IMG/VR virus record: IMGVR_UViG_3300046749_000089
Coordinates: 1 to 24,715 of that record
Length of the DNA: 24,715 nt
Reading direction: 5' to 3' (one strand)
From: a virus
Each line of letters begins with the position of its first letter. Within the stretch, counting starts at the first letter, position 1. The notes below the pieces were generated by a model, which was not told the origin of the DNA, ran no database searches, and saw only the letters and a program-made list of their open reading frames with translations. Both the position numbers and the translations under genes were made by a program. This document shows, piece by piece, positions 2,093 through 22,869 of this stretch.

Positions 2093-4349
2093 AGTAGCAC
2101 TAATAGAAACAACACCTAGTTCCACGAACTTTGATAGATACTTCGACTTTGAGTTCGAAAGGTTTGCATTGTGTAGTGATTCTAGTAAAAGAAAAATTTT
2201 GAAAAAAGATGTAGATATCGAAATCGATGTCGATGCGTACGATTGGCTCATTCTAGTAGGTTCTGAGCCCTTCAAAAACTTCACGAGAAAGACATCAATA
2301 ACTGAGTACAATGGAAAAATAATTGATGATAAATTTTTGGCTTTAATTAACCCTGCAATGATAAAGTTCAGACCAGAGGCAAAGAAGTCATTCGAGGAAG
2401 CAGTCGAGAGTATAACAGGATATGTAAGCGGAGATCTTCAGCAAGTATCCTTAGGAGAAGACAAATGTTATGGAATCACAGATAGTAGAGACCTATACAT
2501 ATTTTTAGACAAAGCACTTGATTCAGACTATGACTTCATAGCACTTGACTCAGAAACATCAGCGTTATACTGTAGAGATGGTTATATGCTAGGTTTCTCA
2601 ATGAGTTATGAACCAGAGCATGGCGTTTATGTAGATTGTGATTGTATAGATGAGAAAGCAGAAAAGCTTATGCAACAACTATTCGATAAGAAAAGAGTAG
2701 TCTTTCACAATGCTAAGTTTGATTTACAATGGTTTATTTATCATTTCAACTTCAAGTTTCCAAGATTTGAAGACACTATGCTTATGCATTATATGTTTGA
2801 TGAAAATCCAGGTACGCATGGTCTAAAGACACTAGCAATTAAACATACTGAGTACGGAGACTATGAGGCAGAACTTGATAACTGGGTAACAGATTATCGT
2901 AAGAGAACTGGTATACTCAAAGCAAGTTTCAGTTATGATTTGATACCATTTGATGTAATGAAGAACTATGCTGCAATGGATGCAGTTGTTACCTTCTTAC
3001 TATTCCAAAAGTTTGAAACAGCAATACTAAAGAATGAGAAACTTTATTGGGTTTACAAGAACTTACTGATAGAAGGTTGTAGATTTTTGAGTCAAGTAGA
3101 AAGTAATGGTGTACCATTTGATGCAGTTAGATTACAGTTTGGTCAAAAGCGTATGCAAGAAGATATTGATGCCGCAGTAGAGAAACTAAATAGTTATCCT
3201 GAAGTGAGACAATTTATCAAAGACAAAGGCGGGTTCAACCCGAACTCAACAGTACAATTACGAAGTCTATTATTTGATTATGTAGGCTTAGCCCCAACGG
3301 GTAAGAAAACGGGTACTGGAGCTGATAGCACAGATGCAGAAAGTTTACAGAAACTTGCAAGTAAGCATGCGATACCCGAGTTGATTTTAGAAGTTCGACA
3401 GAAAGTAAAAATCAAAACTACATATCTTGATAAAATTATACCTGCACTCGATATGGACGGCAGGTTACGAACAAACTTCAATCTACACGGTACGACATCG
3501 GGTCGTCTAAGTAGTAGTGGTAAACTGAATATGCAACAGCTTCCGAGAGACAATCCAACAGTAAAGGGTTGTATCAAAGCAAAAGCAGGTAATAAGATAG
3601 TCGCAATGGACTTAACAACAGCAGAAGTATATTGTGCTGCAGTTTTGGCAGATGATAAAAACTTAATGAAAGTATTCTCAGATGGTGGGAACTTTCACTC
3701 AACCATTGCAAAACAAGTATTCAAACTACCAGGTGAGGTAGAAGATGTAGCAGAACACTACACAGCAGAAAGACAACAAGCAAAGGCAGTTACATTCGGT
3801 ATAATGTATGGAGCTGGCCCTGCAAAAATCAGTGAACAGGTTACCAAGGATTCAGGTAAATACTTTAGTCCTGCAGAAGCTAAACATACTATTGATGATT
3901 ACTTCGAAGCTTTTCCTAAACTAAAAGGGTGGCTCAATAACACACAGAAATTTATACAAGCGAATGGCTTTATATACAGTCATTTCGGCAGAAAGAGAAG
4001 ACTACCAAATGTATTCTCACAAGACAAAGGTATTGCATCACATGAAGTAAGAAGTGGTGTAAATGCTCTCGTTCAATCCGTAGCAAGTGATGTAAACTTA
4101 CTCGGAGCGATAGAGATGCAGAAGTATATAGTCAAGACAGGAATGAAGTCAAAGATATTTGCACTTGTTCATGACTCTGTGTTAGCAGAAGTTCCTCTTG
4201 ATGAAGTAGAATTATATAGTGCAAAACTGAAAGAATTTATACAGAGAGACCGTGGTCTTTCTGTGCCAGGAACCCCGATTGGATGTGACTTTGATGTAGC
4301 TGATGATTATAGCTTAGGAAAGTTTGAAAAGCTATATGATTTGTCGTAA
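2085..4349 (+). CDS. polA: DNA polymerase, family A, with 3'-5' exonuclease
   Basis: This 754-aa protein is the phage replicative polymerase. Residues about 145-310 form a 3'-5' proofreading exonuclease with ExoI LDSETSALY (D155, E157), ExoII HNAKFDLQWF (D213) and ExoIII YAAMD (Y295, D299). Polymerase motif A is AMDLTTAEVYCAA (D509, E514), motif B is RQQAKAVTFGIMYG, and motif C is LVHDSVLAEVP (H696, D697). The position equivalent to E. coli Phe762, in the FG..YG segment of motif B, is Phe (F571). Motif A departs from the usual DYSQIELR: Tyr replaces the usual Arg. The N-terminal 130 residues do not match a known domain and there is no 5'-3' exonuclease domain; that activity is probably supplied by the separate gene at 18446. 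It overlaps the primase upstream and the sulfotransferase downstream. Confidence 0.95.
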   Translation: MAKVALIETTPSSTNFDRYFDFEFERFALCSDSSKRKILKKDVDIEIDVDAYDWLILVGSEPFKNFTRKTSITEYNGKIIDDKFLALINPAMIKFRPEAKKSFEEAVESITGYVSGDLQQVSLGEDKCYGITDSRDLYIFLDKALDSDYDFIALDSETSALYCRDGYMLGFSMSYEPEHGVYVDCDCIDEKAEKLMQQLFDKKRVVFHNAKFDLQWFIYHFNFKFPRFEDTMLMHYMFDENPGTHGLKTLAIKHTEYGDYEAELDNWVTDYRKRTGILKASFSYDLIPFDVMKNYAAMDAVVTFLLFQKFETAILKNEKLYWVYKNLLIEGCRFLSQVESNGVPFDAVRLQFGQKRMQEDIDAAVEKLNSYPEVRQFIKDKGGFNPNSTVQLRSLLFDYVGLAPTGKKTGTGADSTDAESLQKLASKHAIPELILEVRQKVKIKTTYLDKIIPALDMDGRLRTNFNLHGTTSGRLSSSGKLNMQQLPRDNPTVKGCIKAKAGNKIVAMDLTTAEVYCAAVLADDKNLMKVFSDGGNFHSTIAKQVFKLPGEVEDVAEHYTAERQQAKAVTFGIMYGAGPAKISEQVTKDSGKYFSPAEAKHTIDDYFEAFPKLKGWLNNTQKFIQANGFIYSHFGRKRRLPNVFSQDKGIASHEVRSGVNALVQSVASDVNLLGAIEMQKYIVKTGMKSKIFALVHDSVLAEVPLDEVELYSAKLKEFIQRDRGLSVPGTPIGCDFDVADDYSLGKFEKLYDLS

Positions 4350-4995
4350 TGAAACAATCTTTATACATATACCAAAGTGTGGCGGGACTGCCATCACAGC
4401 TCAGTATTTACATAAGTATGGTGTTCCAACTGACCCACAAATGCGAGTGGGAACACAGACCTGGAGTCAAGGATATGCAACTCATTATATAAGAGGTTGG
4501 AGAAATCATCCACCCTATAAAATGTATACTATGAATATGCATGCAACTTACGACCAGTATGCCTTACAATATCCTGATTGGAAATACCTTTCATCAGTAA
4601 GACATCCATATAATCGTTTTCGTAGTGCATGGAATCATCTATCAGATATTGAATTAGTAGATACACCTTTTAAAAATTGGGTTCCTCGTGCCATTGCTAG
4701 TATGCAAGAGGGTAAGTGGAACAAGTGTATAGATGACAAAGATGCATTGTATGAATTACATATAATGAAACCATCGTTTGACCCAAGTATAGTTATGAAA
4801 CCACAATGGCAATGGATAAGACCAGGAGTAGAAGTTCATAAGTTAGAAGATAAAACTATTTGGGAGAAACTAAAGATAAAAGAAGCTAGAAAGAATGTAA
4901 GTCAAAGCAGACCTTATGAATGGACAGATAAAAACAAAGAGTTAATATACGAGTATTACAAAAAAGATTTTGAGGATTTTTATTATGGAGCCTAA
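4336..4995 (+). CDS. Sulfotransferase family protein
   Basis: The product should transfer a sulfuryl group from PAPS to an unknown acceptor. The N-terminus carries the 5'-phosphosulfate loop ETIFIHIPKCGGTA (P13, K14, C15, G16, G17, T18), the form found in carbohydrate sulfotransferases of the Sulfotransfer_2 type. SSVRHPYNRFRSAW (R89, S97) matches the 3'-phosphate-binding motif R.P..R..S. It is 219 aa with no membrane anchor, so it acts in the cytoplasm. ATG 4336 is preferred over the TTG at 4324 because AGGAAAG at 4316-4322 is too close to the TTG; either way it overlaps the end of the polymerase gene. Two genes downstream is an APS-kinase-like domain that could supply PAPS. The acceptor could be a glycan, lipid or protein, and nothing in the sequence decides it. 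Confidence 0.8.
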   Translation: MICRNETIFIHIPKCGGTAITAQYLHKYGVPTDPQMRVGTQTWSQGYATHYIRGWRNHPPYKMYTMNMHATYDQYALQYPDWKYLSSVRHPYNRFRSAWNHLSDIELVDTPFKNWVPRAIASMQEGKWNKCIDDKDALYELHIMKPSFDPSIVMKPQWQWIRPGVEVHKLEDKTIWEKLKIKEARKNVSQSRPYEWTDKNKELIYEYYKKDFEDFYYGA

Positions 4996-8297: not shown

Positions 8298-8431
8298 ATT
8301 TTGACAAAAGTTTTATACCAGTATGGATAATACTAGCAATGCTAGTGTCTATGACTGTGTATGAACAAGTAAAAGTTAAACAAGTATGTGATTATACATT
8401 TCATGGAATTTATATATGTGCGGATTCGTAG
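8294..8431 (+). CDS. Tiny single-span membrane protein, 45 aa
   Basis: This short ORF starts at ATG 8294, in an ATGA overlap with the preceding gene, and ends at TAG 8429-8431, overlapping the amidotransferase gene by 16 bases. The hydrophobic segment FIPVWIILAMLVSMTVY (residues 7-23) would form one membrane helix, followed by a short basic stretch and two cysteines (C32, C42). It fills what would otherwise be a gap of over 110 bases in a gapless operon, the main reason to believe it. The function is unknown. Confidence 0.6.
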   Translation: MNFDKSFIPVWIILAMLVSMTVYEQVKVKQVCDYTFHGIYICADS

Positions 8432-9921
8432 TAACAACAGATACTGAAAATTGTGGTGAGATGATGAAACGACAAGAGTTTCGTGGTCCCGATGCAATGT
8501 CTATGTGGAAAAACAAAGATATTGCTATGGCTCACGCATTACTAGATATCAATGGAGAAAAACAATTACAACCATATAAAACCAAAAAGAATAATTATTT
8601 AGTATTCAATGGCGAGATGTATGATACTAATATACAGAATGATACAAAGTACTTAGCTGATGGACTAGAAACATATGGATTTAAGTTTTTAGAGTGGAAT
8701 GATTGGCATGGAAGTTTAGCATGGTATCAACCAGAGAAAAGAAAATTAGTTATATGTAGAGACCACTTTGGAGCCAAACCTTTATGGATACATAAAAAAG
8801 GTAAAAATGTTACTGTTACTACAAGTCTAAGAAGCTTGTCAAATTTAGAAGAAAATACAAAAACAAAGCAAGGATATGTAATAAACTCATTATTACAAGG
8901 ACATGAGAGTCCTTACAAAGATGTTATGAAAGTAGCTGCTGGAGAGTATGTAATATTTGATTTCAATACAGATAAAATAATATTTAAGAATCTTTGGAAT
9001 AATTTTAAAATAAAAAGTAATCCGTTTAATAAAGAAGAGTTTAGAACAAGACTAATATCAAATATACAAAAGATAGCAAGTAATAAACAAAAGACAGGAT
9101 TATTTTTGAGTGGGGGATTTGATAGTACATTTGCTCTATCAGTAGTAAAAGATATGGATTTAGACCTTACTGTATACATATGTGCTTATGATAACACAAA
9201 AGGACTATATAATGACCATAATGGGTTTAGATTAGAGGCTAAATTAGCTGCACAAACTTGTAAAGAATGGGGTGTAAAACATAAAGTAGTTGTACTACAA
9301 CAAGACAAAATATATGACTACGATAGAAGATGGCTAAATAATGCTAGATTCCCTTGGTCAGATAGAAATAGACGAGCACCAAGATACTTTCTAGCAGAAC
9401 AAGCTGCTAAAGATGGTTGTAAAGTAATAATTACAGGAGATAGTGCAGATGAACTGTTCTCTGGATATTTACATCATCATAAGTATTGGATAGAAGGATA
9501 TTGTGAACATAAATTAGAATACTATAAATCAGAGCCATGGCTTCCTAAGATACAGTTTTCAGACGATAAATGGAACAATATGTTGATTTGTGATTTGATG
9601 ATAACATCCGAGCAGAATATACTAGCAACTGACCAAACCTGCGGAATGTTTGGAATGGAAAGTAGACCTGTATATTTAGGTCAAAATTTTGTTAGATATT
9701 GTTATGAATTTGATGGTATGACAAAATTTAAACAAAGATTTGGATGGGACACAGGAGTATATAAATACTTACTTAGAGAAGTTATGGGGGATATGTTACC
9801 AAAACATATTATAGACAGAAAGAAAAAGACAGGCTGGAGCAGTCCTTGGGATAACAACCACCCAAGAATACAAAAAGAATGGAGAATTGCAGATTGGCAG
9901 TACATGAAGGAACTAAGTTGA
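8416..9921 (+). CDS. asnB: Asparagine synthetase-like glutamine amidotransferase
   Basis: The 501-aa product has the two-domain layout of asparagine synthetase B. A class II glutaminase domain starts with the catalytic Cys2 (MCGFVVTT), followed by EFRGPDA, NYLVFNGEMYD and CRDHFGAKPLW. A synthetase PP-loop domain has LFLSGGFDSTFAL (S232-S237) and the downstream IITGDSADELFSGY. AsnB makes Asn from Asp, Gln and ATP, and relatives amidate sugars or peptides. It is slightly shorter than E. coli AsnB (554 aa). It starts at ATG 8416, since the Cys must follow the initiator Met. Between small membrane genes and a cytidylyltransferase, it could serve amino-acid supply or surface-molecule amidation; the sequence does not separate these. 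Confidence 0.88.
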   Translation: MCGFVVTTDTENCGEMMKRQEFRGPDAMSMWKNKDIAMAHALLDINGEKQLQPYKTKKNNYLVFNGEMYDTNIQNDTKYLADGLETYGFKFLEWNDWHGSLAWYQPEKRKLVICRDHFGAKPLWIHKKGKNVTVTTSLRSLSNLEENTKTKQGYVINSLLQGHESPYKDVMKVAAGEYVIFDFNTDKIIFKNLWNNFKIKSNPFNKEEFRTRLISNIQKIASNKQKTGLFLSGGFDSTFALSVVKDMDLDLTVYICAYDNTKGLYNDHNGFRLEAKLAAQTCKEWGVKHKVVVLQQDKIYDYDRRWLNNARFPWSDRNRRAPRYFLAEQAAKDGCKVIITGDSADELFSGYLHHHKYWIEGYCEHKLEYYKSEPWLPKIQFSDDKWNNMLICDLMITSEQNILATDQTCGMFGMESRPVYLGQNFVRYCYEFDGMTKFKQRFGWDTGVYKYLLREVMGDMLPKHIIDRKKKTGWSSPWDNNHPRIQKEWRIADWQYMKELS

Positions 9922-10319
9922 TAAAAGGATTTACTTGCGGAGCATTTGATTTATTACATGCAGGTCATGTAGTAATGATGAAAGAGGCAAAAGAGAATTG
10001 CGATTATCTTATAGTAGGATTACAAACTGACCCGAGTATAGATAGACAGGAGAAAAATCAACCTGTTCAGTCTGTATACGAAAGATATATGCAATTACAA
10101 GCTATAAAGTACATAGATGAAATTATTCCTTACGATACAGAACAAAGTCTGATAGATTTACTAGAATCAACAGAAATACATTTGAGATTTATAGGAGAGG
10201 ATTGGGCAGACAAGCATTTTACAGGAAAAGGATTGCATGAAGTATACTATACTAATAGACAGCACTCTTTTTCTAGTTCAGGATTAAGGAGACTTATTAG
10301 TGAAAGCAGTACTAAGTAA
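9918..10319 (+). CDS. Glycerol-3-phosphate cytidylyltransferase-like protein
   Basis: This 133-aa nucleotidylyltransferase has GFTCGAFDLLHAGHVVMMKE with the HxGH site (H14, H17) close to the N-terminus. It continues with RYMQLQAIKYIDEIIPYD and LRFIGEDWADKHF, matching the TagD/TarD family, which makes CDP-glycerol from CTP and glycerol 3-phosphate. The usual C-terminal STT-IR motif is changed to SSSGLRRL. TTG 9918 is preferred: it overlaps the preceding stop, GAAGGA lies six bases upstream, and the N-terminus then aligns with the family. ATG 9879 would add 13 residues encoded inside the previous gene. Ethanolamine-phosphate or sugar-phosphate substrates are alternatives. Confidence 0.78.
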   Translation: MIKGFTCGAFDLLHAGHVVMMKEAKENCDYLIVGLQTDPSIDRQEKNQPVQSVYERYMQLQAIKYIDEIIPYDTEQSLIDLLESTEIHLRFIGEDWADKHFTGKGLHEVYYTNRQHSFSSSGLRRLISESSTK

Positions 10320-12918: not shown

Positions 12919-13534
12919 CCAAACCAAGGGCTCAGCCCAAAAAGAAAAAATCGAAACCTATAACTATGCAGGTAAAGAAGACCACCACCTAAGAATGGTT
13001 GGAGACTTACTACCTAGATATGTCTATTGGATTAAAGGAGAGAATAACAAGAATATTCCTATGGAGTGTTTATCTTTCGATAGAAACTCTGAAACCTTTA
13101 ACAACAAAGAACATGACCATGTTCGTGACTTTTACCCTGACTTAAAATGTGGATGGTCTTACGCTGTCCAATGCATAGACTACGGCGACAAATCAGTTAA
13201 AGTTCTTAATCTTAAGAGAAAACTATTTGACCAAATGATTGTAGCTATGGAAGAGTTAGGCGACCCAACAGACCCTGTAACAGGATATGACATTCATTTC
13301 AAGAGAAAGAAAACAGGTCCACAGGTGTTTAATGTTGAGTATCAATTACAAGTTCTAAAGTGTAAACCAAGAGAACTTGAGGATTGGGAAAAAGACTTAG
13401 TAGCAAGTCTAAAATCTATGGATGATGTCTTACCAAGACCAACCGCAGATGCACAATTAGAGTTACTAAGAAGAGTGAATAATCAAGGCGATGAACCTTC
13501 ACAAGAAGTTTCTGACGAGTTTGACGTATCATGA
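12902..13534 (+). CDS. Single-stranded DNA-binding protein, phage type
   Basis: The 210-aa protein fits phage ssDNA-binding proteins, which protect template strands and recruit replication and recombination enzymes. Support comes from the central GDPTDPVTGYDIHFKRKKTG segment with the following NVEYQLQVL strand, typical of OB-fold phage SSBs. The C-terminal tail is acidic (GDEPSQEVSDEFDVS), ending in a cluster like the protein-interaction tail of T7 gp2.5 and T4 gp32. There is no Cys/His zinc site as in T4 gp32. ATG 12902 has AGGAG at 12891-12895 six bases upstream; the longer start at 12878 is unlikely. It sits directly before recombination genes. Confidence 0.75.
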   Translation: MAIGFNQTKGSAQKEKIETYNYAGKEDHHLRMVGDLLPRYVYWIKGENNKNIPMECLSFDRNSETFNNKEHDHVRDFYPDLKCGWSYAVQCIDYGDKSVKVLNLKRKLFDQMIVAMEELGDPTDPVTGYDIHFKRKKTGPQVFNVEYQLQVLKCKPRELEDWEKDLVASLKSMDDVLPRPTADAQLELLRRVNNQGDEPSQEVSDEFDVS

Positions 13535-14076
13535 TTGGAGTAGGAGATAAATTTCCAGAGTTTACACTTAACGGTGTAAGTGGTAACATGAGTTTTAACG
13601 AAGATTGGAAAGACGCAGACCATGACTTTATTAAAGTTAATAGTTGGGATTTATCTGACTGGTCTGTAATTTACTTTTACCCAAAAGACTTTACATTTAT
13701 TTGCCCTACTGAGATAGTAGGTATGGATAGCTTAATGGCAGAAACTGATGAAGTTTATGGCATAAGTCCTGATAACGAATATTGTAAATGGGAGTGGAAA
13801 ACAGGTGATGAACATGCACCTCTTTATGGCGTAGAACATGCACTTTTAGCTGACTGCAATAACAATCTTGCAACAGCTTTAGGAATTGTAAGCGATGAAG
13901 GTGTTCCTTATAGAACAACCTACATACTTGACCCAGAAGGAATAATACAGCATGTATCTGTTAACGCTCTAAACACAGGCAGAAATGCAAATGAAGTTCT
14001 TAGAACTTTACAAGCATTAAAAGCAGGTGGTCTCACAGGTTGTGAATGGACACCAGGAGATGACTTCGTAGCATGA
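13531..14076 (+). CDS. Peroxiredoxin, AhpC/2-Cys type
   Basis: This 181-aa thiol peroxidase should reduce H2O2 or organic peroxides. The active site YPKDFTFICPTEI has the peroxidatic Cys58 with the conserved Pro and Thr of P...T..C. R at GVPYRTTYILDPEG supplies the family Arg. Near the C-terminus GLTGCEWTPGDDF holds a candidate resolving Cys171, as in typical 2-Cys enzymes. There is no signal peptide, so it is cytoplasmic. It is linked by ATGA overlaps to the SSB upstream and the gp47-like nuclease downstream. A reductant could be the host thioredoxin system; the phage glutaredoxin at 17805 is another candidate. Confidence 0.9.
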   Translation: MIGVGDKFPEFTLNGVSGNMSFNEDWKDADHDFIKVNSWDLSDWSVIYFYPKDFTFICPTEIVGMDSLMAETDEVYGISPDNEYCKWEWKTGDEHAPLYGVEHALLADCNNNLATALGIVSDEGVPYRTTYILDPEGIIQHVSVNALNTGRNANEVLRTLQALKAGGLTGCEWTPGDDFVA

Positions 14077-15026: not shown

Positions 15027-16812
15027 CTGTTTCTCTTATGGAACAGGAAACGAAATAGACTTATCCGAGTCTACACTTACACAATTAGTTGGAACAAACG
15101 GAGTAGGTAAATCTTCTATACCTTTAGTATTAGAAGAAGTTTTATTTAATAAGAATAGTAAAAATGTTAAAAAAGCAGACATCGCTAATAGATATGTTAA
15201 TCAAGGATACGATATATCTCTTGAGTTTAGTGTTGACAGTGATTCTTATTGCATTTCTGTTAGTCGTAGGTCTACACTTAAATGTAAGCTAACGAAGAAT
15301 GGAGAGGATATAAGTTCACATACTGCTTCTAATACATATAAGAGTTTGGGAGAAATACTTGGAATTGACTTCAAGACTTTCTCACAGTTAGTATATCAGA
15401 ATACAAATGCATCTTTACAGTTTCTTACTGCCACAGATACAAACAGGAAAAAGTTCCTAATTGACCTCTTAAAACTAGACGAATATGTGTCGTACTTTGA
15501 GAGTTTCAAGGAGGCAGTACGAGTAGCTTCAAGTAATATTACAGTAACCAACGCCAAAATCTCAACTATTGAGAAATGGTTGGAAGATAATTTTTTGGAA
15601 GATACGACACTACTTACAAAAATGGATTTACCATTTCAGTCAGAAGAAGACGAAAAGTCTTTAAGTTCTTTACAAATAGAGTTTGAAAATATCTCGGAAA
15701 AGAACAAAAATATAAATACTAATAATAATCTGAAGGAACAGTTAAAAACAATTGACCTTCACGAAAATAAAAGATTATTAGCAAAGCATACAGAACTCAT
15801 AGATACAGCTCCTCACCTAACTCGTTTAGGAGCATGGAAGTCAGAAGGTATACATGAGGAAAAGATGTTAGAAAAATACCAAGCCCTAGCGGGTATGGAA
15901 AACGCAGAGTGTGTTACTTGTGGTCAAGACATTAACCAAACCTTTGTAAATATGTCAATAAAAGAACACACAGAAAGAATGGAACAATGTGAAAAATTCG
16001 CAGAGAAAGATAGAGAAAAATTAAAAGAGGCAGAAGAACATAATGAGATACATAGGACAGCAACCAAAAACATCGAAGATTGGGAAAATCTCTACAGGAG
16101 TATCGACAACAAACTCCCTACACAAGTTATCAACGGAGAAGAGTTGGGGAATAAGATTAAAACGCTTCGCGAGAGGATTGCCGCTATTAGGGACTCTATT
16201 CAGACGGTAGTAGATGAGAATGAGAGAAGAGAACGACACAACACAAGAATTGGAATTATACAAGAGCAAACTCAGCAGTTTCAAGAACAACTTGACGCAC
16301 ACGAGCTTAGACTTGAGAGTTCAGAAAACAAACTTGCGGTTCTTGAAATACTTAAAAAGGCGTTTAGCACAAACGGTCTCCTTGCATACAAAATAGAATC
16401 ACTTGTCAAAGAACTAGAAATACTTACTAATGAGTATCTCGCAGAGTTCAGTGATGGTAGATTCAGTATAAATTTTGTTGTAGAGAACGACAAATTAAAT
16501 GTAGAAGTATCTGATAATGGAAACATTATTGATATTCTAGCACTTTCTTCAGGTGAGCTAGCAAGAGTAAATATTGCAACGCTAGTCGCAATTAGAAAGT
16601 TAATGACTTCGATTAGTAGAAGTCAAATCAATGTTCTTTTTCTTGATGAAGTTAATCAAGCATTAGATGAACAAGGAAAAGAAAAAGTAGTGGAAGTCCT
16701 ACTGAAAGAAGAAAACCTAAATACATATTTAGTTTCTCACGGTTGGACTCATCCATTGCTTGAAAAGATAGAGATAATTAAAGAAGATAATATATCGTGC
16801 CTCAGCAGTTAA
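14995..16812 (+). CDS. Recombination ATPase subunit, Rad50/SbcC/gp46-like
   Basis: The 605-aa SMC-like ATPase has Walker A VGTNGVGKSS (G33-S41), a Q-loop near VYQN, two coiled-coil arms around a zinc hook CVTCG (C306, C309), the ABC signature LSSGELARV (517 onward) and Walker B NVLFLDEVNQALDEQG (D551, E552), followed by a switch His in YLVSHGW. Size is close to T4 gp46 (560 aa), with short arms of roughly 100 residues each. It forms an end-resection complex with the preceding nuclease. ATG 14995 follows GGGAG. Its stop overlaps the next gene. Confidence 0.92.
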   Translation: MIILQKLKWDNCFSYGTGNEIDLSESTLTQLVGTNGVGKSSIPLVLEEVLFNKNSKNVKKADIANRYVNQGYDISLEFSVDSDSYCISVSRRSTLKCKLTKNGEDISSHTASNTYKSLGEILGIDFKTFSQLVYQNTNASLQFLTATDTNRKKFLIDLLKLDEYVSYFESFKEAVRVASSNITVTNAKISTIEKWLEDNFLEDTTLLTKMDLPFQSEEDEKSLSSLQIEFENISEKNKNINTNNNLKEQLKTIDLHENKRLLAKHTELIDTAPHLTRLGAWKSEGIHEEKMLEKYQALAGMENAECVTCGQDINQTFVNMSIKEHTERMEQCEKFAEKDREKLKEAEEHNEIHRTATKNIEDWENLYRSIDNKLPTQVINGEELGNKIKTLRERIAAIRDSIQTVVDENERRERHNTRIGIIQEQTQQFQEQLDAHELRLESSENKLAVLEILKKAFSTNGLLAYKIESLVKELEILTNEYLAEFSDGRFSINFVVENDKLNVEVSDNGNIIDILALSSGELARVNIATLVAIRKLMTSISRSQINVLFLDEVNQALDEQGKEKVVEVLLKEENLNTYLVSHGWTHPLLEKIEIIKEDNISCLSS

Positions 16813-16988
16813 ATTTAAACTTCAAACCTAGAGACGCCACACCTGAAGAATTTAAGGAGTGGGAAGAGAAAGAACTTAACTGGTGGGCTGAGATACAGAT
16901 ACCGTTAGTAGCTTTTATGGCTATTGTGCAGTTACTTGTATTCGGCTCTATGCTGATGGCATTTTACTTAATAGGAAAAGCAGTATGA
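16797..16988 (+). CDS. Small single-span membrane protein, 63 aa
   Basis: The N-terminal 30 residues are hydrophilic and acidic (ATPEEFKEWEEKELNWWAE). A hydrophobic segment from about 35 to 59 (IPLVAFMAIVQLLVFGSMLM onward) would span the inner membrane, probably leaving the N-terminus in the cytoplasm. The start is GTG 16797, inside the end of the Rad50-like gene, with only a weak ribosome binding site. It overlaps the next membrane protein gene by 4 bases (ATGA) and is two genes before the cytochrome c. The function is unknown. Confidence 0.6.
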   Translation: MPQQLNLNFKPRDATPEEFKEWEEKELNWWAEIQIPLVAFMAIVQLLVFGSMLMAFYLIGKAV

Positions 16989-17377
16989 AACAACCACCAA
17001 TACATAGAAGATTAATAATGTTTGTAGTTGATAGTTGGAGAGTGATTATGGATGCTAGATACAATCCACTAAAATATATTCCCGACCCAAGTCTACAGAC
17101 TTATTTTATGTTAGTATTATTTACAATGTGGAGTGTATACTTTGGATTTGTAGCAACCTACTATATGGGTTGGCTAGGGTATAGCACAGTAACAAGTATA
17201 ATTGTCCACATATGTATATTACTACCTCTTGCATTCACAAACGCAGTGTTTGCAGATGCAGAAAGAGACCATGCTCCCTGGTTACTACAGTGGAGAAAAG
17301 AACAAAAGTCATGGAAGTTTTGGCAAAGAAGAACAAAACCAAACATGGTAAGATGGGATATAGATAAAGAAGCATGA
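16985..17377 (+). CDS. Two-span membrane protein, 130 aa
   Basis: The protein has a basic N-terminus (HRRLIMFVVDSWRVIMDARY) and two hydrophobic helices, about 40-62 and 66-89. A hydrophilic C-terminal tail is rich in Trp and basic residues (WRKEQKSWKFWQRR). I do not recognise the family. Placed between another small membrane protein and a secreted cytochrome c, with ATGA overlaps on both sides, it may help localise or interact with the cytochrome, but this is inference from position only. A membrane-perturbing (holin-like) role cannot be excluded. Confidence 0.65.
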   Translation: MKQPPIHRRLIMFVVDSWRVIMDARYNPLKYIPDPSLQTYFMLVLFTMWSVYFGFVATYYMGWLGYSTVTSIIVHICILLPLAFTNAVFADAERDHAPWLLQWRKEQKSWKFWQRRTKPNMVRWDIDKEA

Positions 17378-17808
17378 AGTTTTACGTATTATCAATAGTA
17401 ACATTTATGGTATGTACCATAGCTTTAGCATATAACAATCTAGAGTATAAAGGATACTCAGGAGCACACTCTTGCACAGGCGAGTGTTATGCAGAATATG
17501 TAAAGATTCATGGTACACCAGCACAGATAGAACAGAAGAAAAAAGAACTTGCAAGTGCAGATGAATTTAGTTCTATTAGAAGTTTATGGGCAGGTTGTGC
17601 AGCTTGTCACGGTAACGAAGGTCAAGGCATGGCAGTATTTCCTAAACTGGCAGGCCAAAGTTCCGAGTATATAATCGACCGACTCAATACATATAAAAAT
17701 AGAGGAGAAGTCGGAAGTATGAGTTCTACAATGTGGGCTCAAGCAGGTATGCTTTCAGAACAAGAGATTAACACAATAGGAAAATTCATTGAGGAGACAA
17801 TGAAATGA
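17374..17808 (+). CDS. Secreted c-type cytochrome (class I)
   Basis: This is a phage-located electron-transfer protein of 144 aa. It starts with a Sec signal peptide (MKFYVLSIVTFMVCTIALA, AxA cleavage after residue 19). The haem attachment motif is CAACH (C75, C78, H79) in LWAGCAACHGNEGQG, followed by FPKLAGQSSEYIIDRLNTYK, as in the cytochrome c4/c5/c553 group. The sixth ligand is probably M116 or M120 in GSMSSTMWAQA. The helix EQEINTIGKFIEE closes the domain. Between signal and haem domain, residues 20-70 include a C34/C38 pair. It would be matured by the host Ccm system in the periplasm. Overlaps with its neighbours show that it belongs to the phage operon. Confidence 0.88.
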   Translation: MKFYVLSIVTFMVCTIALAYNNLEYKGYSGAHSCTGECYAEYVKIHGTPAQIEQKKKELASADEFSSIRSLWAGCAACHGNEGQGMAVFPKLAGQSSEYIIDRLNTYKNRGEVGSMSSTMWAQAGMLSEQEINTIGKFIEETMK

Positions 17809-22016: not shown

Positions 22017-22204
22017 TGGATAATTCAATTAAAATTGATGATAAGGACTATCTCGTAGAAGATATGGATGACGACCAAAAAGCATTAGTACAAGCGATAA
22101 AGTTTTGTGATGTTAAATCAGCAGAAGTTCAAAACACACTAGCTGCTTTAAAAACAGCTCGTCAAGCATATGTGAATGATTTAGGCGAAAGACTAAAGTC
22201 GTGA
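22016..22204 (+). CDS. Small DUF6447-like protein
   Basis: The 62-aa protein begins with a short strand pair (IKIDDKDYLVEDMDDDQKAL) and then one long helix ending LAALKTARQAYVNDLGERLK. This matches the small phage and bacterial DUF6447 pattern I.I.G..Y....L.......L..L...D.EI..L...LA.L.TAR.AY...L. The function is unknown. Its ATG shares a base with the nrdB stop and its own stop overlaps GTG 22201 of the next gene. Confidence 0.65.
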   Translation: MDNSIKIDDKDYLVEDMDDDQKALVQAIKFCDVKSAEVQNTLAALKTARQAYVNDLGERLKS

Positions 22205-22869
22205 AAATCTTCATAGGATATGAAAGTGAATATCCTGAAGCATTTGAAGTATGTGCTGAATCTATTCGTAGCTTCAGTACAAAACACGAGATTATACCTC
22301 TTATCAAAAGCAAATTAGAGGATGAAGGAATGTACTCAAGAAAGTACCAGGGTGAGAGCACAGAGTTTGCTTTCACTCGTTTCCTCGTTCCTAAACTGTC
22401 TGATTGGACAGGTCACAGTCTTTTTTGTGATGGAGATTTTATGTGGAGATGTGACCCACAAGAAATCGAAGATTATGTAAAACAAAGTTCTCAATCTCCA
22501 ACTGTATGGGTAGTTAAACACCCTCAATTTCTAACAACACCTAGTGAGAAGATGAATGGCAAAGCAAATATGTCATATCCAAAAAAGTATTGGTCATCTC
22601 TCATGTACTTTAATAACGCACAATGTCTTCAACTATCCAGTAGGTCAGTTAACTATTGGACTGGCAAACAATTACACGAAATGGAGTGGGCGGATGAAAT
22701 TGGTGAGTTACCAGCAGAATATAATGCTATGGTAAATTACTATAATTTTCCTAGTCCTAAAGCAATACACTTTACAGATGGTGGACCGTGGCAAGACATA
22801 CATGATAATATACTTTACTCAAACGAATGGAAAAAACATTACAACAACTTACTAAAAATAAAACACTAA
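22201..22869 (+). CDS. Glycosyltransferase, GT8-like
   Basis: The 222-aa product begins MKIFIGYESEYPEAFEVCAE like GT8 enzymes. It carries TEFAFTRFLVPKL followed by the metal-binding DGD in HSLFCDGDFMW (D77, D79), and a late His in KAIHFTDGGPW (H190) like the GT8 H..G.KPW motif. It should use a nucleotide sugar to glycosylate an unknown acceptor. The start is GTG 22201, overlapping the preceding stop. It overlaps the next glycosyltransferase by 43 bases, suggesting co-translation of a glycosylation pair. Confidence 0.75.
   Translation: MKIFIGYESEYPEAFEVCAESIRSFSTKHEIIPLIKSKLEDEGMYSRKYQGESTEFAFTRFLVPKLSDWTGHSLFCDGDFMWRCDPQEIEDYVKQSSQSPTVWVVKHPQFLTTPSEKMNGKANMSYPKKYWSSLMYFNNAQCLQLSSRSVNYWTGKQLHEMEWADEIGELPAEYNAMVNYYNFPSPKAIHFTDGGPWQDIHDNILYSNEWKKHYNNLLKIKH

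Follow-up and report, generated by a model that had tools for sequence, protein, structure and literature searches.

The window, by which we mean the whole stretch of 24,715 nucleotides that was analysed (IMG/VR record IMGVR_UViG_3300046749_000089), carries a T5-like gene set; its DNA polymerase shares 46% identity with the polymerases of T5-like phages. Among its genes for nucleotide and DNA metabolism (NrdAB, SbcCD and FEN) lies a gene for a small c-type cytochrome, flanked by genes for two small membrane proteins, here called TM63 and TM130, and for a glutaredoxin (Table 1). The ATGA overlaps reported in a preliminary description of this sequence are present on both sides of the cytochrome gene. 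Elsewhere in the window, translations judged by eye resemble a sulfotransferase (4324-4995), an asparagine synthase (8416-9921), a cytidylyltransferase (9879-10319) and a glycosyltransferase (22201-22869), which suggests surface-sugar or nucleotide-modification functions for these four genes.

Table 1. Features of the cytochrome locus, in window coordinates; protein parts are given by residue number.
Feature	Position	Strand	Basis
AhpC/TSA peroxiredoxin, upstream in the same gene run	13531..14076	+	Pfam AhpC-TSA 2.4e-23
TM63, one-helix membrane protein	16797..16988	+	No known family
TM130, two-helix membrane protein, invariant H75 in second helix near short loop	16985..17377	+	
ATGA overlap, TM130 stop with cytochrome start	17374..17377	+	Sequence; translational coupling
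Predicted monohaem class I cytochrome c, 144 aa	17374..17808	+	ORF, Pfam and alignment
Cytochrome parts: N-terminal helix 3-24 (anchor or signal); C34-x-G-x-C38-Y; haem site C75-A-A-C-H79; likely axial M120			
ATGA overlap, cytochrome stop with glutaredoxin start	17805..17808	+	Sequence
Glutaredoxin, 73 aa	17805..18026	+	Pfam Glutaredoxin 1.2e-10; PHROG 22

Residues 72-140 of the cytochrome match Pfam Cytochrom_C (PF00034) at 2.1e-8, with 35.8 bits against a cut-off of 21.3. C75, C78, H79 and M120 are invariant in all 29 diverse relatives that were aligned, in agreement with the CAACH haem site and the likely methionine ligand of the preliminary description. Because of this invariance M120, in the motif TMW, is the most likely axial ligand; the methionine of GMLS, another conceivable choice, is not conserved in the same alignment. 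Profile comparison with the PDB pointed to cytochromes c4, c552 and c554, and a Foldseek search of the PDB with an AF2 model (pLDDT 72), in which the protein is predicted to adopt the class I fold, pointed to c546/556, c554, c553 and c552. Cytochrome c4 has two haem domains, whereas the 144 residues of the phage protein hold a single CxxCH; it would work like half of a c4 and is not a c4. Against the curated NCBI families c550, c551 and CcoP it scored below the cut-off (best 24 bits against 125). Taken together, the sequence comparisons indicate that the protein is most likely a class I cytochrome with a single haem, of the same type as the small c4/c5/c552/c554 proteins, with its haem domain predicted to lie in the periplasm.

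In the stretch that links the N-terminal helix to the haem domain, the 29 relatives share an invariant C34-x-G36-x-C38 segment that is described by no family library; the two cysteines could form a disulfide in the periplasm. The dN/dS ratio of the cytochrome is 0.11-0.19 when it is compared with relatives at 77-83% identity and with the more distant L110. By this measure the gene is under purifying selection, and its haem ligands and whole haem domain appear strongly constrained, as in working carriers.

The N terminus is a single hydrophobic helix, which had been read as the clean signal peptide of a secreted protein. In the window A17-L-A19 does end the hydrophobic core, and cleavage after A19 is conceivable. 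However, an AXA-like site follows the core in only 14 of the 29 relatives; in many of them the core is followed at once by a conserved segment with the pattern Y-x-N/D-L-E-Y. On the strength of this count, we lean towards an uncleaved anchor in the family, and the helix most likely tethers the window cytochrome to the host inner membrane. That the cytochrome faces the periplasm is strongly supported, but a soluble form, as the term secreted would suggest, is doubtful for most of the family. A distant phage relative (L223, 9656-9970, minus strand) is short and without the CxGxC segment; its signal peptide is of the normal kind and it looks soluble, so that soluble and anchored phage cytochromes may both exist.

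Cytochrome genes in viromes have in general come under suspicion as cellular contamination, a matter that has been addressed for viral metagenomes (PMC3877843). At this locus, contamination by host DNA or a chimeric assembly is refuted and its probability is negligible. Two contigs from other metagenomes (L002 and L003) have the same genes in the same order as the window at ~100% identity, and since they carry this arrangement independently, chimerism is ruled out. A 103-kb relative has a terminase ~50% identical to those of T5-like phages together with T5-type structural genes. A profile scan of viral contigs found relatives of the cytochrome encoded in 492 stretches. The family also extends to T4-like phages, with the typical order NrdA - NrdB - small membrane gene - cytochrome - glutaredoxin. 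No cellular sequence falls within the family. The preliminary description held that the cytochrome is encoded by the phage and is no contaminant, and these observations, with the dN/dS ratio, support it strongly; it had also named chimerism or absence from related phages as grounds for abandoning that view, and L002, L003 and the 492 viral relatives dispose of both decisively. Carried by phage genomes, kept across relatives and under purifying selection, the gene is in these respects like a phage auxiliary gene.

The family is nonetheless absent from the catalogues that were searched: tblastn at E 0.01 against 50,697 deposited phage records gave no match to the cytochrome, and neither did PHROGs. 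A survey of the open-access literature found no account of this particular family. What we regard as new is a phage family of electron carriers of respiratory type with a conserved membrane cassette and a link to the singlet-oxygen response.

A phylogeny against the c4/c5/c553 cytochromes of marine bacteria had been proposed as a way to find the donor of the gene. The choice of fold family was right, but no donor was found among the 385 alphaproteobacterial and 369 gammaproteobacterial genomes sampled, and a donor in a genome outside these samples is possible. Genuine cellular matches are 36-45% identical and confined to the haem domain. The sampled genomes contained one match at 1e-20 and none at 1e-22, against ~1e-70 to 1e-81 for phage members. 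A haem-domain tree placed no cellular row among the 41 core phage rows and intermixed T5-like with T4-like phages; it is built on few columns, and support at this fork is weak (80/83). The only full-length matches in bacterial and archaeal genomes, four in number and at 62-70% identity (L162-L165), are themselves T4-like phage contigs binned into MAGs. The MAGs concerned, of three GTDB species (Synechococcus CPC35, Planctomycetaceae TMED10 and Sphingobacteriales), thus contain apparently misbinned T4-like phage contigs. We reject a recent capture of the gene from a marine bacterium, as its full-length matches are phage contigs and the sampled genomes hold only distant ones.

The neighbours of the cytochrome gene are conserved as a set. 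In 37 of the 51 distinct cytochrome loci with enough flanking sequence, from both T5-like and T4-like phages, TM63 or TM130 directly adjoins the cytochrome, in shuffled order; in the other 14 neither does. A glutaredoxin adjoins it in 28 of the 51. TM63 is found on either side of the cytochrome, and TM130 before it. The peroxiredoxin directly adjoins TM130 in several relatives (L011, L113, L127 and L143), and the order peroxiredoxin - TM130 - cytochrome - SbcD occurs in L011, L143 and L144. Three long records (G004, G008 and G009) contain both TM130 and the cytochrome, ~11 kb apart in G008 and G009. The cytochrome belongs to what we take to be a mobile phage cassette of redox proteins and small membrane proteins, with TM63, TM130 and glutaredoxin, and with peroxiredoxin nearby. 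This cassette of small membrane proteins, which holds most of the functional information, and the C34-x-G36-x-C38 segment were both missed in the preliminary description.

Some T4-like phages have other, unrelated-looking single-helix proteins directly before the cytochrome (L164, 4774-4938, and L165, 4592-4980, both on the plus strand). On a long T5-like marine contig (L206, 11797-13611, plus strand), we observed an adenylate/guanylate cyclase that has ~36% identity to its counterparts in Pelagibacter phage HTVC008M and OM43 phage Melnitz. One further record (L004, IMGVR_UViG_2823148864_000008) is numbered in a style unlike that of the metagenomes; it may stem from an isolate or a single cell and so could point to the host.

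These linkage data bear on a purely bioenergetic explanation, in which an extra cytochrome c boosts electron transfer between bc1 and the terminal oxidase and thereby the supply of ATP, there is no stress role, and TM63 and TM130 are unrelated bystanders in the same accessory region. The nearest structural relatives of the cytochrome are soluble carriers, among them the c4 of the bc1-cbb3 supercomplex structure 8smr, and surroundings of NrdAB, SbcCD and FEN would suit an early, energy-hungry phase of infection. A shared location is, however, a poor explanation for membrane proteins that accompany the cytochrome in 37 of 51 loci, in distant phages and in shuffled order, and bacteria too have a locus in which TM130 neighbours a cytochrome (see below). 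We consider the purely bioenergetic explanation possible, though we do not favour it.

TM63 matched no family in Pfam, PHROG or PDB profiles, and a search of 230 alphaproteobacterial genomes gave one marginal partial match and no convincing cellular homologue. A weak resemblance to PufX (E 0.03) was not supported. Small phage membrane proteins are often factors of host takeover, and this, with the lack of a known family for TM63, could be taken to mean that the cassette diverts or blocks host electron flow, whether to take over the host, to depolarise it ahead of lysis or to exclude superinfecting phages, and that its small membrane proteins act as inhibitors. Yet the haem ligands and haem domain are constrained as they are in working carriers, the genes belong to a metabolic rather than a lysis cluster, nothing connects the cytochrome with a lysis gene, and no defence family was matched. 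We judge such a modifier of respiration unlikely, and the preliminary description's suggestion of a part in lysis or superinfection control found no support.

TM130 could not be named by Pfam, NCBIfam or PDB profiles. Homologues are present in 17 of 289 alphaproteobacterial genomes, and in 23 of 337 with a better profile; among 274 gammaproteobacterial genomes none was convincing, and a match to a 733-aa frame (5.6e-5) was taken as chance. OM43 phage Melnitz and phage C48C1 have relatives of TM130, in C48C1 two genes before a peroxiredoxin. A mixed alignment of phage and bacterial sequences has L17, L32, M35, W36, F40, H57, T67 and A74 of the bacterial reference as invariant residues, H57 corresponding to H75 of the window protein. 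In the structural model, helices are predicted at residues 35-61 and 68-94; H75 is in the second of these, about seven residues past the short loop. By the positive-inside rule this loop would be periplasmic, which would place H75 on the cytochrome's side, in the membrane half that faces the periplasm.

The bacterial relatives of TM130 connect the cassette to a stress response. Of 37 bacterial TM130 genes, 15 are preceded by the strict motif TGATCY-N15-17-CGTAW, where first-order Markov sequences give an expectation of 0.006, with a maximum of 1 over 500 trials. Some of these loci are orthologous to one another; ~11 distinct contexts have the motif or a looser form of it. Among 97 control upstream regions it was found once, before a fasciclin gene. 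The motif matches the published RpoE-ChrR consensus, TGATCC-n16-CGTA (PMC5507510; PMC4336711). In one locus (L267) TM130 adjoins an ECF sigma factor and a ChrR-type cupin protein, and elsewhere its neighbours, in gene scans covering 1.5 kb, include fasciclin, photolyase, short-chain dehydrogenase (SDR), GTP cyclohydrolase and peroxiredoxin. The bacterial TM130 loci to which this description of the family refers are L228, L237, L240, L244-L251, L255, L264-L267, L269, L274 and L275.

According to one study (PMC7074977), the RpoE regulon of R. sphaeroides includes CycA (cytochrome c2), fasciclin, FolE2, the SDR RSP_1087 and photolyase. CycA was not clearly induced there, and TM130 was not seen among the regulon members listed. 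Cellular TM130 thus resembles the RpoE-ChrR (ECF11) singlet-oxygen regulon in having its promoter and in sitting among its known members, whereas the phage form has no such promoter: the strict RpoE-type motif is absent from the window and from the ten phage loci scanned, which implies that expression of the cassette is under phage control. Comparative sequence data suggest that the two-helix TM130 of Alphaproteobacteria is probably an unrecognised member of this regulon, and the phage cassette was the means of exposing it. Phage and bacterial TM130 are only ~30% identical, so the bacterial stress role may not carry over to the phage.

Within one order of Alphaproteobacteria, the gene after TM130 encodes a small, secreted cytochrome c (L237, L244, L245, L249 and L250), a single syntenic locus shared by five genomes rather than five independent cases; the cytochrome of this pair is of a different subfamily from that of the phages.

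We combine the evidence on the cytochrome and on TM130 in the reading that the cassette sustains and protects electron transfer in the inner membrane during infection, to which we assign a probability of about one half. That a phage cytochrome keeps respiration running or reroutes electrons, as the preliminary description had offered, is plausible from the sequence and compatible with the neighbouring genes. After infection, we infer, the cytochrome c maturation (Ccm) system of the host would attach haem to the phage cytochrome, and the anchored protein would carry electrons from a quinol-oxidising complex of the host to a terminal oxidase or to some other acceptor in the periplasm; TM130 would serve as its membrane partner. 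Electron flow and ATP supply could in this way continue during the takeover of host protein synthesis, and over-reduction and oxidative damage would be limited in an aerobic, sunlit cell.

A bolder proposal is that TM130, TM63 and the cytochrome make up a small electron-transfer complex of the phage in the host inner membrane, where the intramembrane histidine of TM130, perhaps in a dimer, would bind haem or quinol and pass electrons to the anchored cytochrome. Such a complex would amount to a respiratory branch owned by the phage, which would relieve over-reduction and singlet-oxygen or peroxide stress. We think this quite improbable. Through TM130 the cassette as a whole is tied to a defined bacterial stress response, and it can therefore be tested with single proteins whether phages of heterotrophic ocean bacteria manage their hosts' respiration and oxidative stress, a question of long standing.

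The phage cytochrome has the haem domain sequence and fold of the c4/c5/c552/c554 group (1h1o, 1etp, 2zzs and 1cno), with CxxCH and a C-terminal methionine. It differs from c4 in having one haem instead of two, and from the group as a whole in its anchor-like N terminus and an extra N-terminal segment of ~50 residues with the invariant CxGxC. The phage members also form a distinct cluster that contains no cellular member. Rhodobacter cytochrome cy is a respiratory cytochrome c that is anchored in the membrane and has its class I haem domain in the periplasm. The phage protein, which has a putative anchor at its N terminus and likewise a class I haem domain predicted to be periplasmic, likely works in a similar manner, but its linker appears structured and carries the CxGxC segment where cytochrome cy has a long flexible tether.

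Phage-borne electron carriers are best known from cyanophages, which have genes for plastocyanin, ferredoxin and PTOX; these serve the photosynthetic electron transport of cyanobacteria. These are likewise borne by phages and presumed to keep electrons flowing during infection; the present case differs in the carrier, a c-type cytochrome, in the phages, which have alphaproteobacterial links, and in the accompanying cassette of membrane proteins. Related discussion of the cyanophage carriers can be found in PMC5082946 and PMC10452541. Phage-encoded SoxD, a protein of thiosulfate oxidation, has been reported in marine data, and two phage soxD contigs discussed there lack one or both haem motifs (PMC8190135). 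Viral reads of cbb3-type oxidase have also been reported from marine data (PMC3474794); that report concerns the catalytic subunit I and not a carrier. The large and uncatalogued family of marine phage cytochromes described here, with its 492 viral loci, points to a strategy like that of the cyanophages, in which phages with alphaproteobacterial links supply a working part of the respiratory chain.
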